Part shown: positions 2,542 to 46,029 of the stretch, piece by piece
Position numbering within the stretch: the stretch's first letter is position 1
Layout of the letters: each line of letters begins with the position of its first letter
NCBI GenBank assembly: GCA_015055655.1
Contig: SVHW01000004.1
Span: 43,420-107,419, forward strand
Direction: 5' to 3'
From: Clostridiales bacterium
GTDB lineage: Bacteria > Bacillota > Clostridia > Christensenellales > Borkfalkiaceae
DNA: 64,000 nucleotides
Program-made: the position numbers and the translations under genes
Notes under the pieces: model-generated
Seen by the model: only the letters and a program-made list of their open reading frames with translations
The model's database searches: none
What the model was told of the DNA's origin: nothing

Positions 2542-3732
2542 TTAATATTTTCTCCAAACCATCTTATCAACGACGCCCGTATAGCTTTGAATAAGTTTCA
2601 CCACTTTCGTCGACACGTTCTCCTCTACGTAATCTGGCACGGGGATACCGTGATTACCGTCCACCGTCAATTGCACGGCAGTATCCACCGCTTGCAAAAG
2701 ATGCTTTTCGTCAATACCTGCCAGCACGAAACACGCCTTATCCAGCGCTTCGGGACGCTCCGTCGAGGTACGGATACAAACGGCAGGGAAGGGTTTGCCA
2801 ATCGACGTAAAGAAACTGCTCTCTTCCGGCAAAGTACCGCTATCAGACACCACCGCAAACGCGTTCATTTGCAATTTGTTATAATCGTGAAATCCCAAAG
2901 GCTGTTGACACATAACTCTCTTATCCAAAACGAAACCGCTTGCTTCCAAACGCTTTTTGCTTCTGGGATGGCAGGAATACAGTATGGGCATATCGTATTT
3001 TTCCGCCATTTTATTGATAGCCGTGAAAAGGGAAAGGAAATTCTTTTCCGTATCGATATTCTCTTCTCTGTGCGCAGATAAAAGAATATATTTTTTCGCC
3101 TGCAACCCAAGCCTATCCAAAACGTCACTCTTCTCAATATCGGTAAGATTGTTATGCAACACTTCCGCCATAGGCGAACCCGTCACGTACGTGCGTTCTT
3201 TGGGAAGTCCGCAATCCGCAAGATATCGACGTGCGTGTTCGGAATACGCCAAGTTCACGTCGGAAATAATATCTACGATACGGCGGTTCGTTTCTTCAGG
3301 CAAACACTCGTCCTTGCAACGATTGCCTGCTTCCATATGGAAAATAGGAATATGCAACCGCTTTGCAGCAATCGCGGAAAGGCAGCTGTTCGTATCCCCC
3401 AAAATAAGAAGCGCGTCCGGCTTGCACGCCACCATCAGTTTATACGAGCAGTTGATAATATTCCCCACCGTCGCGCCCAAATCGTCGCCCACCGCGTCCA
3501 TATACACTTCGGGGTCGGCAAGTTTCAAATCCTTAAAGAATACGCCGTTGAGGTTATAATCGTAATTTTGTCCCGTATGCGCCAAAATACAATCAAAATA
3601 TTGACGCGCCTTGTTGATAACCGCCGCCAAGCGAATGATTTCCGGGCGAGTACCCACGACAATCAATAACTTTAATTTCCCGTTGTCTTGGAATTTTACG
3701 TCCGAATAATCCAATCTAATTTTCGTTTCCAT
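2542..3732 (-). CDS. capG: Non-hydrolysing UDP-N-acetylglucosamine 2-epimerase family (UDP-L-FucNAc synthase, CapG/FnlC/WbjD type)
   Basis: VVGTRPEIIRLAAV, HTGQNYDYNLN, LGDTNS, HMEAGNRC, SAHREENID motifs; near capE and capF; start trimmed to METKIRLDY. Confidence 0.88.
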   Translation of the reverse strand: METKIRLDYSDVKFQDNGKLKLLIVVGTRPEIIRLAAVINKARQYFDCILAHTGQNYDYNLNGVFFKDLKLADPEVYMDAVGDDLGATVGNIINCSYKLMVACKPDALLILGDTNSCLSAIAAKRLHIPIFHMEAGNRCKDECLPEETNRRIVDIISDVNLAYSEHARRYLADCGLPKERTYVTGSPMAEVLHNNLTDIEKSDVLDRLGLQAKKYILLSAHREENIDTEKNFLSLFTAINKMAEKYDMPILYSCHPRSKKRLEASGFVLDKRVMCQQPLGFHDYNKLQMNAFAVVSDSGTLPEESSFFTSIGKPFPAVCIRTSTERPEALDKACFVLAGIDEKHLLQAVDTAVQLTVDGNHGIPVPDYVEENVSTKVVKLIQSYTGVVDKMVWRKY

Positions 3733-4977: not shown

Positions 4978-6180
4978 TTATTCCACCACTTCAAAAAACG
5001 TATCAGGACGTTCGTTATCAAATTGCTCGTTCGCCCACATCACCGTCACCAAATTTTCCGTATTGGAAAGATTGATAATATTGTGGGTGTACCCGGGCAA
5101 CATATGCACCGCTTGAATTCTTTCTCCGCTCACCTCAAAATTGAACACCTCGTCCGTGCCAATTTTTCTTTGTTGAATTAAGCCTTTCCCGGATACGACG
5201 ATGAAAAACTCCCATTTCGTATGGTGCCAATGCTGCCCTTTCGTAATCCCGGGCTTGGAGATGTTAATAGACACTTGTCCACACTTTTCCGTCTTTAAAA
5301 GCTCGGTAAAGCTGCCCCTACTATCTTCGTTCGTATGTAAATCAAACGCCACTTTTTCTTTGGGCAAATAGCTTAAATACGTCGAATAAAGTTTCTTTGC
5401 GAAACTCCCGTTAGGAATTTCGGGAATCACCAACGTTTCGCTTTGCGCGCGGAAGGTATGCAATAAATCCACGATTTCGCCAAGCGTAACTTTATGCGTC
5501 GTAGGCACGTAATAATACCTGCCCGTCTGGCTTTCCACGGGCGTTAATCCCTCGTAATCGCAACGATGCCCTTTCCCCTCTAATAAATCGAGCATTTCTT
5601 GCACCAAATCGTCGATATATAACAATTCAAGCTCTACCGCCCTGTCGCTTACCGTGATAGGCAAATCGTTAGCGATGTTATTGCAAAAGGTAGCCACGGC
5701 GCTGTTGTAATTGGGGCGACACCATTTCCCAAAGAGATTAGGGAAACGGTAAACGCATACCTGCCCACCGCTTTCTTGGGCGTACGCAAAGAAAAGTTCT
5801 TCCCCCGCCTTTTTGCTCTTGCCGTATTCCCCTTCGGCATAACGCCCAATAAGCGTCGCTTGGATAGAGGAAGAAAGCATTACACTTGCTTTATTTCCGT
5901 ATTTTTTAAGCGTATTCAAAAGCGTAGAAGCAAAGCCGAAATTGCCTTGCATAAACTCTTCTTGGGTTTTTGGACGGTTTACGCCCGCAAGGTTGAACAC
6001 GAAATCCGCGTCTTGACAATACGCGTCCAAATCAGCAGGATTGCTGTCGATATCGTATTCGTAAACGGCGTCAATCTTCAACGTCGGACGCGTCCTATCC
6101 TTCCCGTCTTTTAAGTTGTATAAAGCCGCGCAAAGATTTTTCCCTACGAATCCTTTTGCGCCCGTTACAAGAATTTTCAT
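4978..6180 (-). CDS. capF: Bifunctional UDP-2-acetamido-2,6-dideoxy-hexos-4-ulose epimerase/reductase, SDR plus C-terminal cupin (CapF/FnlB/WbjC)
   Basis: MKILVTGAKGFVGKNL N-terminus; C-terminal cupin GQHWHHTKWEFFIVVSGKGLIQQR. Confidence 0.93.
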   Translation of the reverse strand: MKILVTGAKGFVGKNLCAALYNLKDGKDRTRPTLKIDAVYEYDIDSNPADLDAYCQDADFVFNLAGVNRPKTQEEFMQGNFGFASTLLNTLKKYGNKASVMLSSSIQATLIGRYAEGEYGKSKKAGEELFFAYAQESGGQVCVYRFPNLFGKWCRPNYNSAVATFCNNIANDLPITVSDRAVELELLYIDDLVQEMLDLLEGKGHRCDYEGLTPVESQTGRYYYVPTTHKVTLGEIVDLLHTFRAQSETLVIPEIPNGSFAKKLYSTYLSYLPKEKVAFDLHTNEDSRGSFTELLKTEKCGQVSINISKPGITKGQHWHHTKWEFFIVVSGKGLIQQRKIGTDEVFNFEVSGERIQAVHMLPGYTHNIINLSNTENLVTVMWANEQFDNERPDTFFEVVE

Positions 6181-6189
6181 GGCTTGTCC

Positions 6190-7227
6190 TTATTTTTTCA
6201 GTTCTTCTTGAATATATTGCAAAGAGGCAATTTTCGCCTTCGTTTCTTCCACGCTTAAAAGTTGCGTGTTGTTGGAATTGAATTCCGTCAAAGGATTGCG
6301 CTCTTTATCGCCTTGCTTGAAATATTTATCGTAGTTAAGCCCACGTTTATCGCAAGGTACTCGATAGAAATTGCCTAAATCAATAGCGTTTGCGCACTCC
6401 TCGTTGGTAAGCAACGTTTCGTACATTTTTTCGCCGTGACGGATACCAATCACTTTGATATTGTTCTTATCGCCGCCAAAGAGCTCGCACACTGCTTCCG
6501 CTTGCGTTTGTATGGTACAAGCAGGCGCTTTTTGTACGAGGATATCGCCGCTTTCTCCGTTTTCGAAAGCAAAAAGCACGAGGTCTACGGCTTCTTCCAA
6601 GGACATAATGAAACGAGTCATATTAGGGTCGGTCAGCGTAATAGGCTTACCTGCGCGGATTTGGTCAATCCAAAGGGGAATAACGCTGCCGCGGCTGCAC
6701 ATAACGTTGCCGTAACGGGTGCAGCAAATCTTCGTCTTGTCGGGGGAAACGGTACGTGATTTTGCCACGATAACCTTTTCCATCATCGCCTTGCTCGTTC
6801 CCATTGCGTTTACGGGATACGCTGCCTTGTCGGTCGAAAGACAAACGATATTTTTCACCCCTGCTTCGATTGCCGCCGTCAATACGTTTTCCGTACCGAT
6901 AACGTTAGTTTTCACCGCTTCGATGGGGAAGAATTCGCAAGAAGGCACTTGTTTTAACGCTGCTGCGTGGAATATGTAATCTACGCCGTGCATTGCGTTT
7001 TTAACGCTAGCGATATCGCGCACGTCGCCGATATAAAATTTAATTTTTTCTGCCGCTTCGGGCATTTTTGCCTGAAACTCGTGACGCATATCGTCTTGTT
7101 TTTTCTCGTCGCGCGAGAAGATACGAATTTCCCCAATATCCGTTTTCAAAAAACGGTTAAGCACGGCGTTACCAAAGCTCCCCGTGCCGCCCGTAATTAA
7201 TAACGTTTTTCCTGTAAATACTCCCAT
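6190..7227 (-). CDS. capE: UDP-GlcNAc 4,6-dehydratase (inverting) CapE/FnlA/WbjB type
   Basis: LLITGGTGSFGNAVLNRFL, RIFSRDEKKQDDMRHEF, HAAALKQVPSCEFFPIEAVKTNVIGTENV, CTRYGNVMCSRGSVIPL. Confidence 0.95.
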   Translation of the reverse strand: MGVFTGKTLLITGGTGSFGNAVLNRFLKTDIGEIRIFSRDEKKQDDMRHEFQAKMPEAAEKIKFYIGDVRDIASVKNAMHGVDYIFHAAALKQVPSCEFFPIEAVKTNVIGTENVLTAAIEAGVKNIVCLSTDKAAYPVNAMGTSKAMMEKVIVAKSRTVSPDKTKICCTRYGNVMCSRGSVIPLWIDQIRAGKPITLTDPNMTRFIMSLEEAVDLVLFAFENGESGDILVQKAPACTIQTQAEAVCELFGGDKNNIKVIGIRHGEKMYETLLTNEECANAIDLGNFYRVPCDKRGLNYDKYFKQGDKERNPLTEFNSNNTQLLSVEETKAKIASLQYIQEELKK

Positions 7228-7228
7228 T

Positions 7229-8269
7229 TTATTTTTCTCCTTTTAATATATTTTTTATTTCTGTTATCGTATAATTTGCCCCTTTTCCGTCCGTTACGCT
7301 ACGCATTTTCTCACGCAACGTTTGACGTAATAGGGAATTTTTCCTTAATTCATTTATCGAAAGCATAATTTCTTTCACAAAATCGGGTTTTTCTCGAATA
7401 TCCCCTATTGAAATCATTATGCCCTGTTCCGCAAACGCTTTTGCCGCGCGTACCTGGTTATCAGCCAATACGTACGTTACAGTCGGCACGCCGCAGGCGC
7501 ATAACTCGTATAAAGTACTTCCACTTGCCGAAACAGCCAAATCACAAGCACGCATCAGCTCACTCATCTTCGTTACGTTTCGATGTAGAACGACGTTCTC
7601 GCATTGTTTTGCCAGCGCTTCTATTTGCGGCAAATCCTTATTCAATGCGCCTATGACAAAATGGAATTCTATATCTCTTTCATTTTCCGTCGCAACATAC
7701 TGCATAATTTGTAACGCAACGTGCTCGGTGTCCGCGCCACCCGTCGATATCAGCACTTTTTCCACAACCTGTGAAAAAGGTTGTTCGCAAGATTGAAACT
7801 CTTCTCTTAATGGCGCAAAGCGCGGTCCTAAAACATAGCGTACTTGCTCTTCGCTTCCGTTATATACCACCCGATATTCTTTCTCATTAGCATAGATATT
7901 ATAATTGATTAATATATCCACGGGATATGCAAAAGCCAATATATCGTCTATATACGCCACCGTAACGAGTTTTCTTATCTGCTCGAAATAATTTTTCGTA
8001 ACGAAATACCCATCCACAATCAATATCTTAGGCGATAAGTCTTTGATAATTTTTTCCAACTGTGGAATCTCGTCATCCATCGCGTTATACGGAGTTTGTA
8101 ACTGATAGCAATCAAATCCCTTATCTAAAACCAATCTCTTCTCCGTTTCCCGCGCAACGCAAAAAGTACAGTCTATCCCCTGCCTTTTTGCCTCTTGCGC
8201 CAAAGATAGACATCGCATCAAATGTCCCATCCCTATATTTTGGTTTGCATCCGTTCTAAATACTATCAT
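7229..8269 (-). CDS. pseG: UDP-2,4-diacetamido-2,4,6-trideoxy-beta-L-altropyranose hydrolase
   Basis: FRTDANQNIGMGHLMRCLSLA, IVDGYFV, LISTGGAD, SASGSTLYELCACGVPT; between pseH and capE. Confidence 0.9.
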   Translation of the reverse strand: MIVFRTDANQNIGMGHLMRCLSLAQEAKRQGIDCTFCVARETEKRLVLDKGFDCYQLQTPYNAMDDEIPQLEKIIKDLSPKILIVDGYFVTKNYFEQIRKLVTVAYIDDILAFAYPVDILINYNIYANEKEYRVVYNGSEEQVRYVLGPRFAPLREEFQSCEQPFSQVVEKVLISTGGADTEHVALQIMQYVATENERDIEFHFVIGALNKDLPQIEALAKQCENVVLHRNVTKMSELMRACDLAVSASGSTLYELCACGVPTVTYVLADNQVRAAKAFAEQGIMISIGDIREKPDFVKEIMLSINELRKNSLLRQTLREKMRSVTDGKGANYTITEIKNILKGEK

Positions 8270-8739
8270 ATCCGCTTCTTATAGGTGATAAAATGTCCTT
8301 GTTTGTTTTTTCTTTGAAACCCCATTTTCTCTACCAAGCGCACCGACGGCAAATTCCCCTCGTGGATTTCGGCAATCGCCGTATGTACACCCCATTTTCT
8401 CGCGGCTTCTTCCATCAACCACGAAACAGCCTCTTTTGCGTAACCTTTTCCCTGCGCAACGGGTTTTAACAAATAATTCACTTCCGCGCTTTCGCCATCC
8501 ACTTTTTTAATCCCAAACACGCCAATGGGTTCTTCGGTGTTTTGCAAACACGCGATATAATCCACACGCGTATCGTCTTGTAAATACCTTTCGTTATACC
8601 ATTTCAAATGTTCTTCTAAAGTAATTTTATGTGCGAAGACAAAATACTGATATACGTTTGGGTCAGAACGCCAAGCCACGATATTTTCCGCGTCTTTTTC
8701 CGTAATTTCCGTAAAACGCAGTCGTTCGCTGTTATTCAT
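8266..8739 (-). CDS. pseH: GNAT N-acetyltransferase, PseH-like
   Basis: RL RFTEITEKDAENIVAWRSDPNV, GKGYAKEAVSWL acetyl-CoA loop; position in pse cluster. Confidence 0.8.
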   Translation of the reverse strand: MNNSERLRFTEITEKDAENIVAWRSDPNVYQYFVFAHKITLEEHLKWYNERYLQDDTRVDYIACLQNTEEPIGVFGIKKVDGESAEVNYLLKPVAQGKGYAKEAVSWLMEEAARKWGVHTAIAEIHEGNLPSVRLVEKMGFQRKNKQGHFITYKKRI

Positions 8740-9778
8740 ATTTTTCCTCAATCATTTCTTTCGTCAACGGTTCCCCATAGGCAATATCTCTCGTTGCCGT
8801 TTTGCCCAACACTTGCGCGTAATATTTGGGCGCCAAGCCGTTAGAAGGACGAATACTGCGTACGTTTTCAGGAGAGAATTTTTCCCCTTTTTTCATTTCT
8901 TTTACCACGAATAGACTTCTTCTAAATTTTAAATTCCCTTTTTCTCCCAAGTTCGGGCCGTAATGCACGTTCCCTTTTGCCGCAACGGTGTTTTTCACGT
9001 CCTGTACCATCTGCGCAAATTCCTCGATTTCCATACTGAAATCGCTGTCGGGATTTTTAATACTTCTGGAAATGCAAATATGTTTCTCAACAACGCACGC
9101 CCCTAAGGCCACACCGACGATAGCGCCTAAACTTCCCATACTGTGGTCGGACAAACCAATGGGAACGGAAAATTTCTTTTGCATATCGGGAATATTCTTC
9201 AAATGCATATCTTCCCAAACGGTTGGATACTCGCTGCAACATTTCAATAAAACGATTTGCGAATTCCCCACCCGCAAACAAGCGTCGATGGCGTCTTGGA
9301 TTTCCTGTTCACTTCCCATACCGCAGGATATAATCATAGGCTTGCCTTTTGATGCGGTATATTCAATCAGCGGAATATCCACCAATTCAAAGCTTGCAAT
9401 TTTATACGCCTCACAGCCCAAGCTTTCCAAAAAATCCACCGCCGAATTATCAAACGGCGTAGATAAAAAATCGACACCGCATTTTTCGCACTCTTCTTTT
9501 ATCCGCGCTTGCCACTCCCACGGCGTACCGGCGTCCGTATATAAATCGTGTAATTTATAACCGTCCCAAAGCCCTCCGCGAATTTTAAAATACTCTTTAT
9601 CGCAATCGATTGTAATGGTATCGGCTGTGTAGGTTTGTATTTTTACGCAATCAGCGCCTGCTTTTGCCGCTTGACGCACGATTTCCAAAGCGTTCTCCAA
9701 TTTCCCCGCGTGGTTCGCGCTCATTTCAGCAATGATATATACGTCGCCTTTTTGAATTTTTTCAAACATCTTAAACAT
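8732..9778 (-). CDS. pseI: Pseudaminic acid synthase (NeuB family)
   Basis: YIIAEMSANHAG, KIQTYTADTITID, GGLWDGYKLHDLYTDAGTPWEW, KIASFELVDIPLI, C-terminal SAF-like region. Confidence 0.93.
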   Translation of the reverse strand: MFKMFEKIQKGDVYIIAEMSANHAGKLENALEIVRQAAKAGADCVKIQTYTADTITIDCDKEYFKIRGGLWDGYKLHDLYTDAGTPWEWQARIKEECEKCGVDFLSTPFDNSAVDFLESLGCEAYKIASFELVDIPLIEYTASKGKPMIISCGMGSEQEIQDAIDACLRVGNSQIVLLKCCSEYPTVWEDMHLKNIPDMQKKFSVPIGLSDHSMGSLGAIVGVALGACVVEKHICISRSIKNPDSDFSMEIEEFAQMVQDVKNTVAAKGNVHYGPNLGEKGNLKFRRSLFVVKEMKKGEKFSPENVRSIRPSNGLAPKYYAQVLGKTATRDIAYGEPLTKEMIEEKYE

Positions 9779-41537: not shown

Positions 41538-41677
41538 CCCCATTATTTCTTTTTTCAATGTTTAATCCAGCTTTTAATGGCAAACAAACTCTTATATAAC
41601 GCAGTTATTTATGTTGGAAACGAAGGCATTTTAGCTACGCCAAAGCCTCCTCGCTCGTCGCGCGCTCCCACACCAAT

Positions 41678-41752
41678 TCCCTCCCTCAAACCCCTTCGTG
41701 GGTTCGGCACATACCAAAGAAACGGACACCCAACAGGGTGTCCGTTTCTTTG
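41678..41752. repeat. 75-bp direct repeat, left copy (island boundary)
   Basis: tccctccctcaaaccccttcgtgggttcggcacataccaaagaaacggacacccaacagggtgtccgtttctttg; 2 mismatches versus 45854..45928. Confidence 0.92.
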
Positions 41753-41864: not shown

Positions 41865-43775
41865 TCACCAAACCCCTTGTATCCCTGGAGGGACGTCATC
41901 CTTTGATATTCTCCCCATTTCATATAGTTCACAAATATGAGCAATTTGTAGTTTTCTATTCAGACAATAATCAAATAAAAAGTCGTTATCAATTTGCCCG
42001 CGCCAATCATTTATTTTGATTCTTTCATCGATAATTTCACAACTCCCTATTTGATAGGGAACCTTGAAAATTTCAATCAAGTTATTATATTCAAAAAAAT
42101 GCACCGGATAACGATAATATCCTATTATTTTTGACGCCGTTACGGATCCTGATAAAAACTCTTTGATTTTTGGAAATTTTTCACTTAAATATTCCGTCAT
42201 CTGATCTCGTCCAAAAGGAATGAAAAACTTTGAAATATCCATTAATATTACACTATCTTTCTCGATAATTTCATGTACAAACTGAGAATAAATTACAAAT
42301 TTTATGATTTTTTTGTATTTAATGTTTTTGTATCCTGCTTTCTTAAAAGCCGTTTGAACAAAACTTGGATGCGCCTCATAAAAAGTTGAAATCCGATTTA
42401 TTTGATAAATATCATCATCCATATCATTTACAAAAAATTCATTCGATTTATTTATGTTACGATTCTTACACTCGCAAAGACATAATGTATCGTCAATCAA
42501 AAACGCTACATCACACTCAAACTCTTCACCGTTAAATTTATTATGTAACTTTACCACCGGAAGTCTAAAATATTTTAAAACATCTAATACATGTCTTTCA
42601 AATGTAGCCCCTTTAAAATCAATGCCTCTTTTGTTGCTAAATTTAGACAATAGGACTTTTCCGACATCCATATCTTTTATCATCCAAGGAATAATGAAAT
42701 ACCCCGCTTCACATGGAATAAATGGATTATCATATAGGTCAACCGATTTTTTATCTAAAATCAAAGATATAAACAACTTTTCAGCGTATATAGGTTCAAC
42801 CCCATATTTTACCATTATAGCAATCCACTGGGCACTATTTTGTATCCATATTTTCTTCTTTTTTGAATCCTTTACAAACAGTTTTAATGCAATATACGCC
42901 TTCATCCACTCTATTGCAGGTATGCTGTTTATTTTAATAGAATCTATGTCGCATAAATACTTTTTTTCTAAAAGGAATCGACTATGATCAAATAGATGTT
43001 TTTGACTATTTAAATCTCGCAATACGTCTATTCCTTGAAGCATCCCATAATAAAAATCATATAAGTAATTAATTATAATCTCTTTTAAATTCGTTTGATA
43101 AAAGAACAAAAGCGAATCATCCGATATGGATGAAACTATCCTTTCCCCTTGCATTAAAAATGTTCTATATCCAGCCTTCCATTCTTCGTATTCTTCTTCA
43201 AAAGCACAAGTTATAAATGAATCTTCAATATACTGTTCTGCAATTTTCATTTCGTCATTAAAAAACAACGAAAAATAATTACATTTTTTAAAAAGAAATT
43301 TCCCTCCGTTAAAAATTTGATTATCATAAACTAAACTTTTTAAGGTATTATTTATTAACTCCATTGCTTTATCATAATAGATTACAGCTCTACGCCTCGC
43401 GATTTTTTGTCTTTTTTGTATTGTAGTCAATATAGCATACAATCTATTACGCGGAGAAATTGAGTTAATGTTTTTTTGTAGCTTATAAGATTCCGCAAAA
43501 AGCTTATTTATTATTTTTACTTCTAACAGATATTTCTTGAAATAGTTCGGTAAGTGCTCAAATTTTAATAATTGCTCGACCAAATCAATATCAATATTTG
43601 TTCCGCGGCGGTCAATAAAAAGTTCCGACTTTTTTAGCAGTTTCACTTTTTGCTCATCATTAAACTCTATCAATATTACATCTAAATTGCCAATCAATTC
43701 ACTTATAGATTGCCTATTTTTCTTAAGATTGTTTTCTATTTCTTTAAGAATCTTTTTCTCATCTTTAGTTAACAT
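41865..43775 (-). CDS. Uncharacterised 636-aa protein with PD-(D/E)XK nuclease-like core
   Basis: GATFERHVLDVLKYFRLPVV...EEFECDVAFLIDDTLCLCECKNRNI fits E...D-x(n)-ExK; long helical N-terminal region. Confidence 0.6.
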   Translation of the reverse strand: MLTKDEKKILKEIENNLKKNRQSISELIGNLDVILIEFNDEQKVKLLKKSELFIDRRGTNIDIDLVEQLLKFEHLPNYFKKYLLEVKIINKLFAESYKLQKNINSISPRNRLYAILTTIQKRQKIARRRAVIYYDKAMELINNTLKSLVYDNQIFNGGKFLFKKCNYFSLFFNDEMKIAEQYIEDSFITCAFEEEYEEWKAGYRTFLMQGERIVSSISDDSLLFFYQTNLKEIIINYLYDFYYGMLQGIDVLRDLNSQKHLFDHSRFLLEKKYLCDIDSIKINSIPAIEWMKAYIALKLFVKDSKKKKIWIQNSAQWIAIMVKYGVEPIYAEKLFISLILDKKSVDLYDNPFIPCEAGYFIIPWMIKDMDVGKVLLSKFSNKRGIDFKGATFERHVLDVLKYFRLPVVKLHNKFNGEEFECDVAFLIDDTLCLCECKNRNINKSNEFFVNDMDDDIYQINRISTFYEAHPSFVQTAFKKAGYKNIKYKKIIKFVIYSQFVHEIIEKDSVILMDISKFFIPFGRDQMTEYLSEKFPKIKEFLSGSVTASKIIGYYRYPVHFFEYNNLIEIFKVPYQIGSCEIIDERIKINDWRGQIDNDFLFDYCLNRKLQIAHICELYEMGRISKDDVPPGIQGVW

Positions 43776-43796: not shown

Positions 43797-43825
43797 AAAA
43801 TCGGCAAAGTTGACTCGCCGATTTT
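43797..43825 (-). terminator. Hairpin terminator after the secB-like gene
   Basis: AAAATCGGC...GCCGATTTT 9-bp inverted repeat; minus strand continues ATTTTAA. Confidence 0.65.
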
Positions 43826-43873: not shown

Positions 43874-44302
43874 TTAATTTTCAGATTTTTCCCATAACTT
43901 TACTACATTAATCGGCTGTAAAAGAATAGGCATAAGCCCTGGTTGAGTAGTTACTACCGATACTTGAGATCTGATAAATGGAAACATAATAGCAACTGCA
44001 TTATACTTAAATATAGTTATCTTTTCTTCTTCGGACAATGTTGTATTATTCAATTCAAAAATGCCATTCGCAACCACTTTCACAGCAATTTTTTCTTTAT
44101 TTTCATTAATTACAACTGCAATAATAATTTCTCGGGTATTAGGCTCATCATTAAAACCTTTAATTTCTATTTGATAATTAACTGATAAGTCCATCTTTCC
44201 AAGATCGTAAATATTTTTCTTTTGAATACACTCTAAATGTGAAAAATAGATATCTTTCATTTTTAAATCACTTTGTGATTCTTCTGCAATGATTTTTCTC
44301 AT
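43874..44302 (-). CDS. SecB-like chaperone (TAC chaperone candidate)
   Basis: NGIFELNN...YNAVAIMFPFIRSQVSVVTTQPGLMPILLQPINVVKLW follows the SecB C-terminal pattern (G.F / LFPY.R..ISS / G..P..L.PINF); RBS AAGGAG before ATGAGAAAAATC. Confidence 0.72.
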   Translation of the reverse strand: MRKIIAEESQSDLKMKDIYFSHLECIQKKNIYDLGKMDLSVNYQIEIKGFNDEPNTREIIIAVVINENKEKIAVKVVANGIFELNNTTLSEEEKITIFKYNAVAIMFPFIRSQVSVVTTQPGLMPILLQPINVVKLWEKSEN

Positions 44303-44312
44303 CATAATCTCC

Positions 44313-44906
44313 TTATATCGCAAACGCAGGCTCTTTTCGAGAAGAGAATTCTCCTTCGGTAAGTCCATAAGAATCATTATAACATGTTGACATATTTGTC
44401 GTTGCTAAAATATTCGAATTAACATTAAACCCTACTGCTATAATTTTTACTACTGCTTTCATCGCCTTCTTAAACGCAGACGCTGTAATTCGTGATTGAT
44501 TTTCTTCCAAGCAATTTTTAAACTCTATTGGATTGTTTAACAACTTTTTTAACACTCTAGAATAACTCGCATTAGCAATCGTTCCACTATAATACCTTTT
44601 TATCGTCGCAACACCACATCCAACTAAAACAGCCAGCGCCTCCAAACTAATTTTATATTTCCCCAAAATTTGACCAATTTCTTCTTGTGTAATTAATCCT
44701 TTTTGAATGCAATATCCTTGTCTAATTCTTTTAAGATTTTCATCTTCTACTTTTGCTACATAAACTCTTCCACCGCAACATTTACATTGCGCAAACTGCT
44801 CTTTATACTTAATAGCCACATCTCTAAACACAAACTCTAAATCTTCTTCATTAAGTATATAGTCAACATAATCGCCACAATTGAGACATATTTCTTTTCT
44901 TTTCAT
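44313..44906 (-). CDS. MqsA-like antitoxin: N-terminal Zn-binding CxxC...CxxC, central HTH, long C-terminal extension
   Basis: CLNCGDYVDYIL...CKCCGGRVYV; ITQEEIGQILGKYKISLEALAVLVGCGVATIKRYYSG HTH; about 80-aa extension past the HTH. Confidence 0.75.
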   Translation of the reverse strand: MKRKEICLNCGDYVDYILNEEDLEFVFRDVAIKYKEQFAQCKCCGGRVYVAKVEDENLKRIRQGYCIQKGLITQEEIGQILGKYKISLEALAVLVGCGVATIKRYYSGTIANASYSRVLKKLLNNPIEFKNCLEENQSRITASAFKKAMKAVVKIIAVGFNVNSNILATTNMSTCYNDSYGLTEGEFSSRKEPAFAI

Positions 44907-44930
44907 TTCCTTTACCTCTCTCTATTTATC

Positions 44931-45380
44931 TTATGCCAACTTATTATAATTCCTATACATGGGATCATTTGGCTCATGTAGAGAAATCAATAAAACCACC
45001 TTTTTATTCCCTTTGATTTGCAATAATTCCATTTTTACATACACATCAACTTTCTCAAATTTAATTCCGTCTTTTGATAAATTTGGAGATATTAAATATA
45101 TGTACATATTCTGTCCATTTCGCAACCGTTCTGGTCTTTCGTCTAATTGTATATCCGCAATATCTTTACTCGTCAAATTCTCCAATAATAATTTTTTTAC
45201 ACCTTCCCACTCCTCAATACCATACTCTAGCCGAAATTTTTTATTTTTTTCTCTTTCAGCACCATCGTCTAATTCTTCTAAAAAAGGAGGTTTTTGTCCG
45301 GATTTCAAAATATTTAAAATTTTTCTAGTTGTATCGTCTATATCTTTTTTAGTAAATTGTTTTAAGATACTTTCAGACAT
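44931..45380 (-). CDS. MqsR-like toxin
   Basis: YGIEEWEGVKKLLLENLTSKDIADIQLDERPE...VDVYVKMELLQIKGNKKVVLLISLHEPN resembles the MqsR order (LGLDFDG..VIIGLSESDF..VYLKITVI..LIVSFKEK); sits upstream of the MqsA-like gene. Confidence 0.68.
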   Translation of the reverse strand: MSESILKQFTKKDIDDTTRKILNILKSGQKPPFLEELDDGAEREKNKKFRLEYGIEEWEGVKKLLLENLTSKDIADIQLDERPERLRNGQNMYIYLISPNLSKDGIKFEKVDVYVKMELLQIKGNKKVVLLISLHEPNDPMYRNYNKLA

Positions 45381-45420
45381 TATCCATTTAACTACCTCCT
45401 TATATAATATACCCAAAATC

Positions 45421-45454
45421 GTATCAAATGATACGCTTTTATATTATAGTATCA
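45421..45454 (-). promoter_or_regulatory. Promoter/operator region of the TAC-like operon
   Basis: TATAAT at 45448..45443 (minus), perfect palindrome GTATCAAATGATAC at 45421..45434 and extra GTATCA half-site at 45449..45454. Confidence 0.6.
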
Positions 45455-45698
45455 AAAAAAAACAGAAAAATCAAGTCTTTTTTAAAATTTTTATGATATT
45501 TTTTTGAATTATATCACTTAATACTTTTTTGTCAAGAGGCTACTGCCAACTTTTTAATCTTTTTTAAATCTAGACTTCCTTAAAGAAACTTTGAGTACCG
45601 ATAGATATTTATCTAAATTCCATTAATGTTTACTAATTTTGTTATATAATAGAATCCCAATAGTATCTATTGGAATAATTATCTAAGGAGTCTTCATT

Positions 45699-45780: not shown

Positions 45781-45853
45781 ATTGTCGCCTTTGCCTTCAA
45801 ATACTTTGTAATACATACTTACTTTGGCAAAGCGTTTTGCTCTCGCAAAACGG

Positions 45854-45928
45854 CTCCCTCCCTCAAATCCCTTCGTGGGTTCGGTACATACCAAAGAAAC
45901 GGACACCCAACAGGGTGTCCGTTTCTTT
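45854..45928. repeat. 75-bp direct repeat, right copy (island boundary, includes tRNA-Leu terminator)
   Basis: 73/75 identical to 41678..41752. Confidence 0.92.
45892..45927. terminator. Terminator following tRNA-Leu
   Basis: AAAGAAACGGACACCC AACA GGGTGTCCGTTTCTTT, perfect 16-bp stem; second copy at 41716..41751. Confidence 0.9.
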
Positions 45929-46011
45929 GGTGCGGACGAAGGGATTTGAACCCACACGGTGTTACCCACAGGAACCTGAAACCTGCGCGTCTGCCAATTT
46001 CGCCACGTCCG
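45927..46011 (-). tRNA. tRNA-Leu (anticodon CAG), CCA encoded
   Basis: GCGGACGTGGCGAAATTGGCAGACGCGCAGGTTTCAGGTTCCTGTGGGTAACACCGTGTGGGTTCAAATCCCTTCGTCCGCACCA. Confidence 0.93.
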
Positions 46012-46029
46012 CGTATTTCGGGAAATCGC

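Follow-up and report, generated by a model that had tools for sequence, protein, structure and literature searches.

A three-gene operon on the minus strand of the analysed DNA (the window, i.e. the whole 64,000-nt stretch of contig SVHW01000004.1 from a Clostridiales bacterium) is very probably a toxin-antitoxin-chaperone (TAC) module, which is the best explanation when the evidence is taken as a whole. The operon had been predicted from its sequence to be a diverged MqsR-MqsA-SecB TAC, and this reading was borne out by sequence profiles and the fold of the antitoxin, by the order of the genes and the signals of their operon, and by comparing the module with other TACs. The kind of system is already known; what is new is the association of a Panacea-branch MqsR/MqsA core with a SecB and a tail of the RelE/HigB-TAC type. 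This combination of toxin, core and SecB was seen in none of the other genomes surveyed, which comprised 297 genomes of the order for the toxin, 57 of the genus for the antitoxin and, for SecB, 399 from the phylum as well as 392 from the class.

The three small co-directional genes expected at this place are all present as ORFs on the minus strand, in the order toxin-antitoxin-chaperone. They form a single transcription unit, a toxin, an antitoxin and a SecB-like gene within one operon being what characterises a TAC. The toxin and antitoxin genes are separated by 24 nt and the antitoxin and SecB genes by 7 nt, with a Shine-Dalgarno sequence in each gap. A promoter matching the consensus at 12/12 positions (TTGACA-16-TATAAT, with TG before the -10; 45508..45535, minus strand) is located upstream, about 130 nt from the toxin start. 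The palindrome CGTATCATTTGATACG (45420..45435; 7-bp arms, 2-nt loop), a candidate operator for the antitoxin HTH, is placed between this promoter and the toxin start. The module had been delimited at 45454; positions 45381..45454 are upstream, non-coding DNA. An intrinsic terminator (43797..43825, minus strand; 12-bp stem and T tail), found 3' of the SecB gene, out-folds 200/200 shuffles of the same stretch (z -2.85). The operon was restricted to three genes, since the following gene (41865..43775, minus strand), encoding a 636-aa protein and divided from SecB by this terminator, has its own promoter-like site.

The first gene (44931..45380, minus strand, ATG at 45380) encodes the 149-aa toxin, whose MqsR-like character came to light through a profile built on the toxins of homologous loci. 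Taken alone, the protein had no direct match in Pfam, NCBIfam or PADLOC, and it did not match Pfam MqsR (PF15723) at E 1, nor reach its curated cut-off. Direct look-ups in PDB, phages and plasmids found nothing, nor did scanning viral and genome contigs for patterns, and PDB profile searches using toxin alignments missed MqsR. The link between the toxin and MqsR was obtained only via the genes adjoining homologous antitoxins, relatives of the window toxin being encoded directly upstream of Panacea-type antitoxins on C. difficile plasmids. An HMM built from 24 toxins of homologous loci matched the window toxin (E 1.5e-14 alone, 3.7e-11 among 2,426 sequences), and matched neither 2,000 shuffles of this toxin nor any other ORF of the window. 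Members of a wider toxin set pass Pfam MqsR_toxin (best 2.1e-21). When the window toxin and Panacea-type toxins were compared by hhalign with canonical MqsRs including that of E. coli, a probability of 99.1 was obtained (E 1.4e-18), and an HMM of canonical MqsRs scored the window toxin at E 3e-4, the best of 3,000 shuffles reaching 0.025. These profiles support the predicted MqsR identity of 44931..45380, the protein being a putative, diverged member of the MqsR superfamily; it does not end in VYVKMELLQIKGNKKVVLLISLHE, as had been stated, 13 further residues coming after this motif. An AF2 model of the toxin, built from an 11-sequence alignment, had a mean pLDDT of 72, and its comparison by Foldseek with PDB and BFVD gave no match at E<=1e-3, only noise.

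By analogy, we infer that the toxin may be an mRNA-cleaving RNase. Tyr114, Lys116, Ser133 and His135 are invariant across its relatives. In a low-scoring profile alignment, Tyr114 was aligned to Tyr81 of E. coli MqsR; Tyr81 and its region of the E. coli protein are conserved in the window toxin. The positions of two other E. coli residues with a catalytic role, the lysines K56 and K96, are occupied in the window toxin by Asp and by His, respectively, this His being shared by the whole Bacillota group; both changes speak against the MqsR reading. The Asp at the Lys56 position, several insertions and the weak direct similarity would fit a toxin that has drifted to inactivity or to another target despite its TAC operon architecture. 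We regard such drift as unlikely, as the residues invariant among relatives are retained, the frame is intact, the promoter is strong and an intact antitoxin has been kept.

The second gene (44313..44906, minus strand) encodes the 197-aa antitoxin. The features ascribed to it were all recovered, i.e. CxxC...CxxC (C7xxC10 and C41xxC44), then an HTH and a long C-terminal tail, and the MqsA fold was the top Foldseek match of its AF2 model (3GN5, E. coli MqsA; E 2e-5, prob 1.0). Family models matched it under their curated cut-offs (TIGR03830, MqsA family, E 1e-13 and 51.2 bits for a cut-off of 61.8; MqsA PF15731, 17.3 bits for a cut-off of 30), and when PDB chains were searched with a profile of the antitoxin and its relatives, E. 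coli MqsA was recovered at E 3e-6. According to these profiles and to the model, the antitoxin is of the MqsA type, with a predicted zinc ribbon/HTH core. Its residues 1-141 share 38-40% identity with the N-terminal part of the MqsA-Panacea antitoxins of C. difficile plasmids. The Panacea domain (PF13274), found by Pfam in the relatives, had no match in the window antitoxin. Two further Pfam matches, of TnsD to the antitoxin (E 8e-4) and of YonK to the SecB-like protein, were under cut-off and were dismissed as chance or HTH/zinc overlap.

The antitoxin ends with a disordered, ChAD-like tail (residues 162-197; 44316..44423, minus strand; ending ...KEPAFAI). AF2 pLDDT was about 34-41 in this tail and >90 in residues 10-150, the confident core reaching about residue 160. 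The tail lies past the portion common to Panacea-type antitoxins and is missing from these relatives. It was considered the part without counterpart because most good antitoxin matches of a broad survey stop at about residue 152-166. ChADs are disordered C-terminal extensions, those tested having 30-41 residues (PMC5105189), and the window tail, with 36 residues, falls within this range. The likeness of the tail to the C-termini of other TAC antitoxins is short and was noticed post hoc. The motif concerned, P-phi-phi-A-phi (phi, hydrophobic), is found in 3/4 RelE/HigB-Xre-SecB TACs of Clostridia and is missing from the antitoxin of locus L138, partner of the closest SecB; we therefore gave it little weight.

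The third gene (43874..44305, minus strand; start ATG at 44305, second in-frame ATG at 44302) encodes the 143-aa SecB-like TAC chaperone. Its identification as SecB held: Pfam SecB (PF02556) was matched at E 1.5e-12 (48 bits, over the curated cut-off of 26), and the PADLOC profile PD-T4-9_C (CmdC) at E 2.6e-15. The original prediction had relied on general SecB being typically absent from Bacillota, and this reason failed. The host genome carries a second SecB gene, which is solitary, and the solitary-type SecB set was found in 38/57 genomes of the genus (10/12 of the good ones, i.e. near-core), which rules out, for this genus, using SecB as a TAC marker on grounds of absence. Rather, the window SecB is tied to the TAC by the shared operon and by its grouping with TAC chaperones, away from solitary SecB. 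In a tree of 41 SecBs, it grouped with chaperones of RelE/HigB-type TACs (90/90), and with neither the solitary SecB nor the chaperone of an MqsR-type TAC (L008); the closest SecB, with 42% identity, belongs to a RelE-type TAC of a congener (L138/L196, same contig). The occurrence of solitary SecB genes in the genus could be taken to mean that the operon is a two-component MqsR-MqsA-like TA followed by an unrelated or export-type SecB without control of the antitoxin. This is very improbable given the common operon with its 7-nt gap and the terminator directly 3' of SecB, the position of the window copy among TAC chaperones, apart from the solitary SecB of the same genome, and the disordered antitoxin tail that Panacea-type relatives do not have. 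Near the solitary SecB (L066), we also observed a low-complexity ORF built of KETKAAKETKATKE repeat units (3125-3613) and, on the other side from this ORF, a type I restriction enzyme gene (5579-8884).

The TAC was compared with known systems. MqsRAC and the MqsRA-SecB TAC of V. cholerae RC385 have the same gene order and component families, i.e. an MqsR-like toxin, a zinc-ribbon/HTH MqsA with a C-terminal extension and a SecB-like chaperone. The window toxin is, however, longer (149 aa, where MqsR of E. coli K-12 has 98 aa) and comes from the Panacea-associated branch, its chaperone groups with RelE/HigB TAC SecBs (in a tree without MqsC) and its host belongs to Clostridia. MqsRAC of E. coli C496_10 protects from T2, and the toxicity of its MqsR is relieved only when MqsA and MqsC are both present (PMC9519451). 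Excess SecB inhibits the protection given by MqsRAC. MqsR_D2:PanA (NetFlax; B. fungorum) has a homologous toxin, a homologous zinc-ribbon/HTH antitoxin core and the same order; relatives of this MqsR:PanA pair were seen here on plasmids of C. difficile and B. cereus as well as in many gut prophages. The window antitoxin differs in having no Panacea domain, and in having the 36-residue disordered tail and a downstream SecB gene. The zinc domain of MqsA neutralises MqsR even with Panacea attached, and Panacea is favoured as a sensor (PMC10440598). By eye, MqsR:PanA pairs were recurrent in prophages among viral contigs (L068-L071, L075-L084), where they have a late-control regulator on one side and an HNH-endonuclease/terminase-like gene on the other.

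CmdTAC (PD-T4-9) shares the TAC layout, and the window SecB scores as CmdC in PADLOC, whereas the window toxin groups with MqsR-like proteins and is not an ADP-ribosyltransferase, and the antitoxins are unrelated. In CmdTAC, the chaperone is displaced by a phage capsid protein, and the antitoxin, which carries the ClpXP signal LAA at its C-terminus, is degraded by ClpP (PMC11618068). The RelE/HigB-Xre-SecB TACs of Clostridia (L138/L196, L085/L144, L141, L153) include the closest SecB, that of the congener, but their toxin is RelE-like and their antitoxin, by inspection, has no zinc ribbon. ChAD tails impose SecB dependence on antitoxins, and ChAD/SecB units are movable between TA families (PMC5105189). 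The window module seems to join two lineages, its MqsR:MqsA core coming from that of Panacea (PanA) and its ChAD/SecB unit from that of the RelE/HigB TACs.

TACs had been presented as a Gram-negative matter; dozens were found in Bacillota, their toxins being of the ADP-ribosyltransferase, RelE/HigB, GNAT and MqsR types or unclassified. Two TAC-like operons (L150 2463-3782 and L151 2467-3833), and a third noted by eye (L025 383-1815), begin with a GNAT acetyltransferase (Pfam); the next gene encodes a small antitoxin-like protein, with -AA at its end in L150 and L151, and the one after it a SecB-like chaperone. Other three-gene TAC-like operons (L155, L162, L163, L164, L165, L167 and L169; e.g. 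L165 2324-3908) encode a first protein of 139-176 aa, mostly with ...VHQEGGPQ...HISWWLYE, a second of 208-236 aa, mostly with -AA or -AV at its end, and then SecB. Pfam gave no match for both L165 proteins or for the first protein of L162, and the first proteins of these operons are a candidate unclassified family of TAC toxins. One TAC, from a genome belonging to the same class, is identical to a TAC of Pseudoflavonifractor sp. An44.

The window TAC resides in a horizontally acquired, mobile-looking islet of 4.2 kb (41.7-45.9 kb), AT-rich, with a GC of about 0.29 against 0.46 in its surroundings. The islet is flanked by 91-nt direct repeats (41662..41752 and 45839..45929) that are 90% identical, and no further full-length copies of the repeat were found in the genome. 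The right repeat adjoins the 3' end of tRNA-Leu(CAG) (45928..46012, minus strand). In congeners, the pepE-tRNA-Leu site is occupied by foreign genes, i.e. a serine recombinase (L128) or a RelE/Xre-like pair with other foreign genes (L131). No empty site was seen in congeners, whose contigs end near the tRNA or carry an insert. The pepE-tRNA-Leu(CAG) site is an apparent hotspot of integration in this genus. One congener (L195, 722-3878) has a canonical MqsR-MqsA-SecB TAC that likewise adjoins a serine recombinase, near a tRNA-Arg, and the congener TACs, i.e. this one and the RelE-type one, together with the islet setting, point to mobile TAC islets swapping parts. The 636-aa neighbour within the islet is a possible nuclease, with a weak NERD match (E 0.06) and, by eye, a D..E.K run in ECDVAFLIDDTLCLCECKN resembling a PD-(D/E)XK nuclease; its distant relatives are hypothetical plasmid proteins.

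By analogy, the function of the TAC would most likely be that of a phage- or stress-triggered RNase switch. The toxin RNase would be held by the zinc domain of the antitoxin, whose HTH would repress the operon at CGTATCATTTGATACG. Unless bound by the SecB-like protein, the ChAD tail would render the antitoxin unstable and expose it to a Clp-type protease. Phage proteins or stress would occupy the chaperone, leading to degradation of the antitoxin, and the freed toxin would halt translation and phage growth. Instead of phage defence, the module might serve to stabilise the islet (addiction) or to respond to stress: the islet is low in GC, flanked by repeats and next to tRNA-Leu, and TA modules often act as addiction elements. 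The TAC of M. tuberculosis is described as stress-responsive (PMC5105189, PMC4257090), whereas the two TACs phage-tested in E. coli, MqsRAC and CmdTAC, both gave defence (PMC9519451, PMC11618068), and the islet neighbour may, on its weak match, be a nuclease. Addiction or stress response is thus a substantial possibility, though well short of probable; from MqsRAC and CmdTAC, we infer a putative defence role.

A natural swap, in which a ChAD tail and SecB took the place of the Panacea domain (a sensor according to the NetFlax proposal) on a common MqsR / zinc-ribbon-HTH core, is proposed tentatively, its probability falling a little under even. If true, Panacea and ChAD-SecB would be trigger-sensing modules that can stand in for each other on a single toxin-antitoxin core. 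The module extends MqsR-type TACs to the Panacea-associated toxin branch, which current defence and family libraries miss, and to Gram-positive gut bacteria. Finally, MqsR:PanA and MqsR:MqsA-ChAD:SecB make up a concrete pair for probing the function of the Panacea domain, which also bears on whether TA systems exchange sensing modules in nature.
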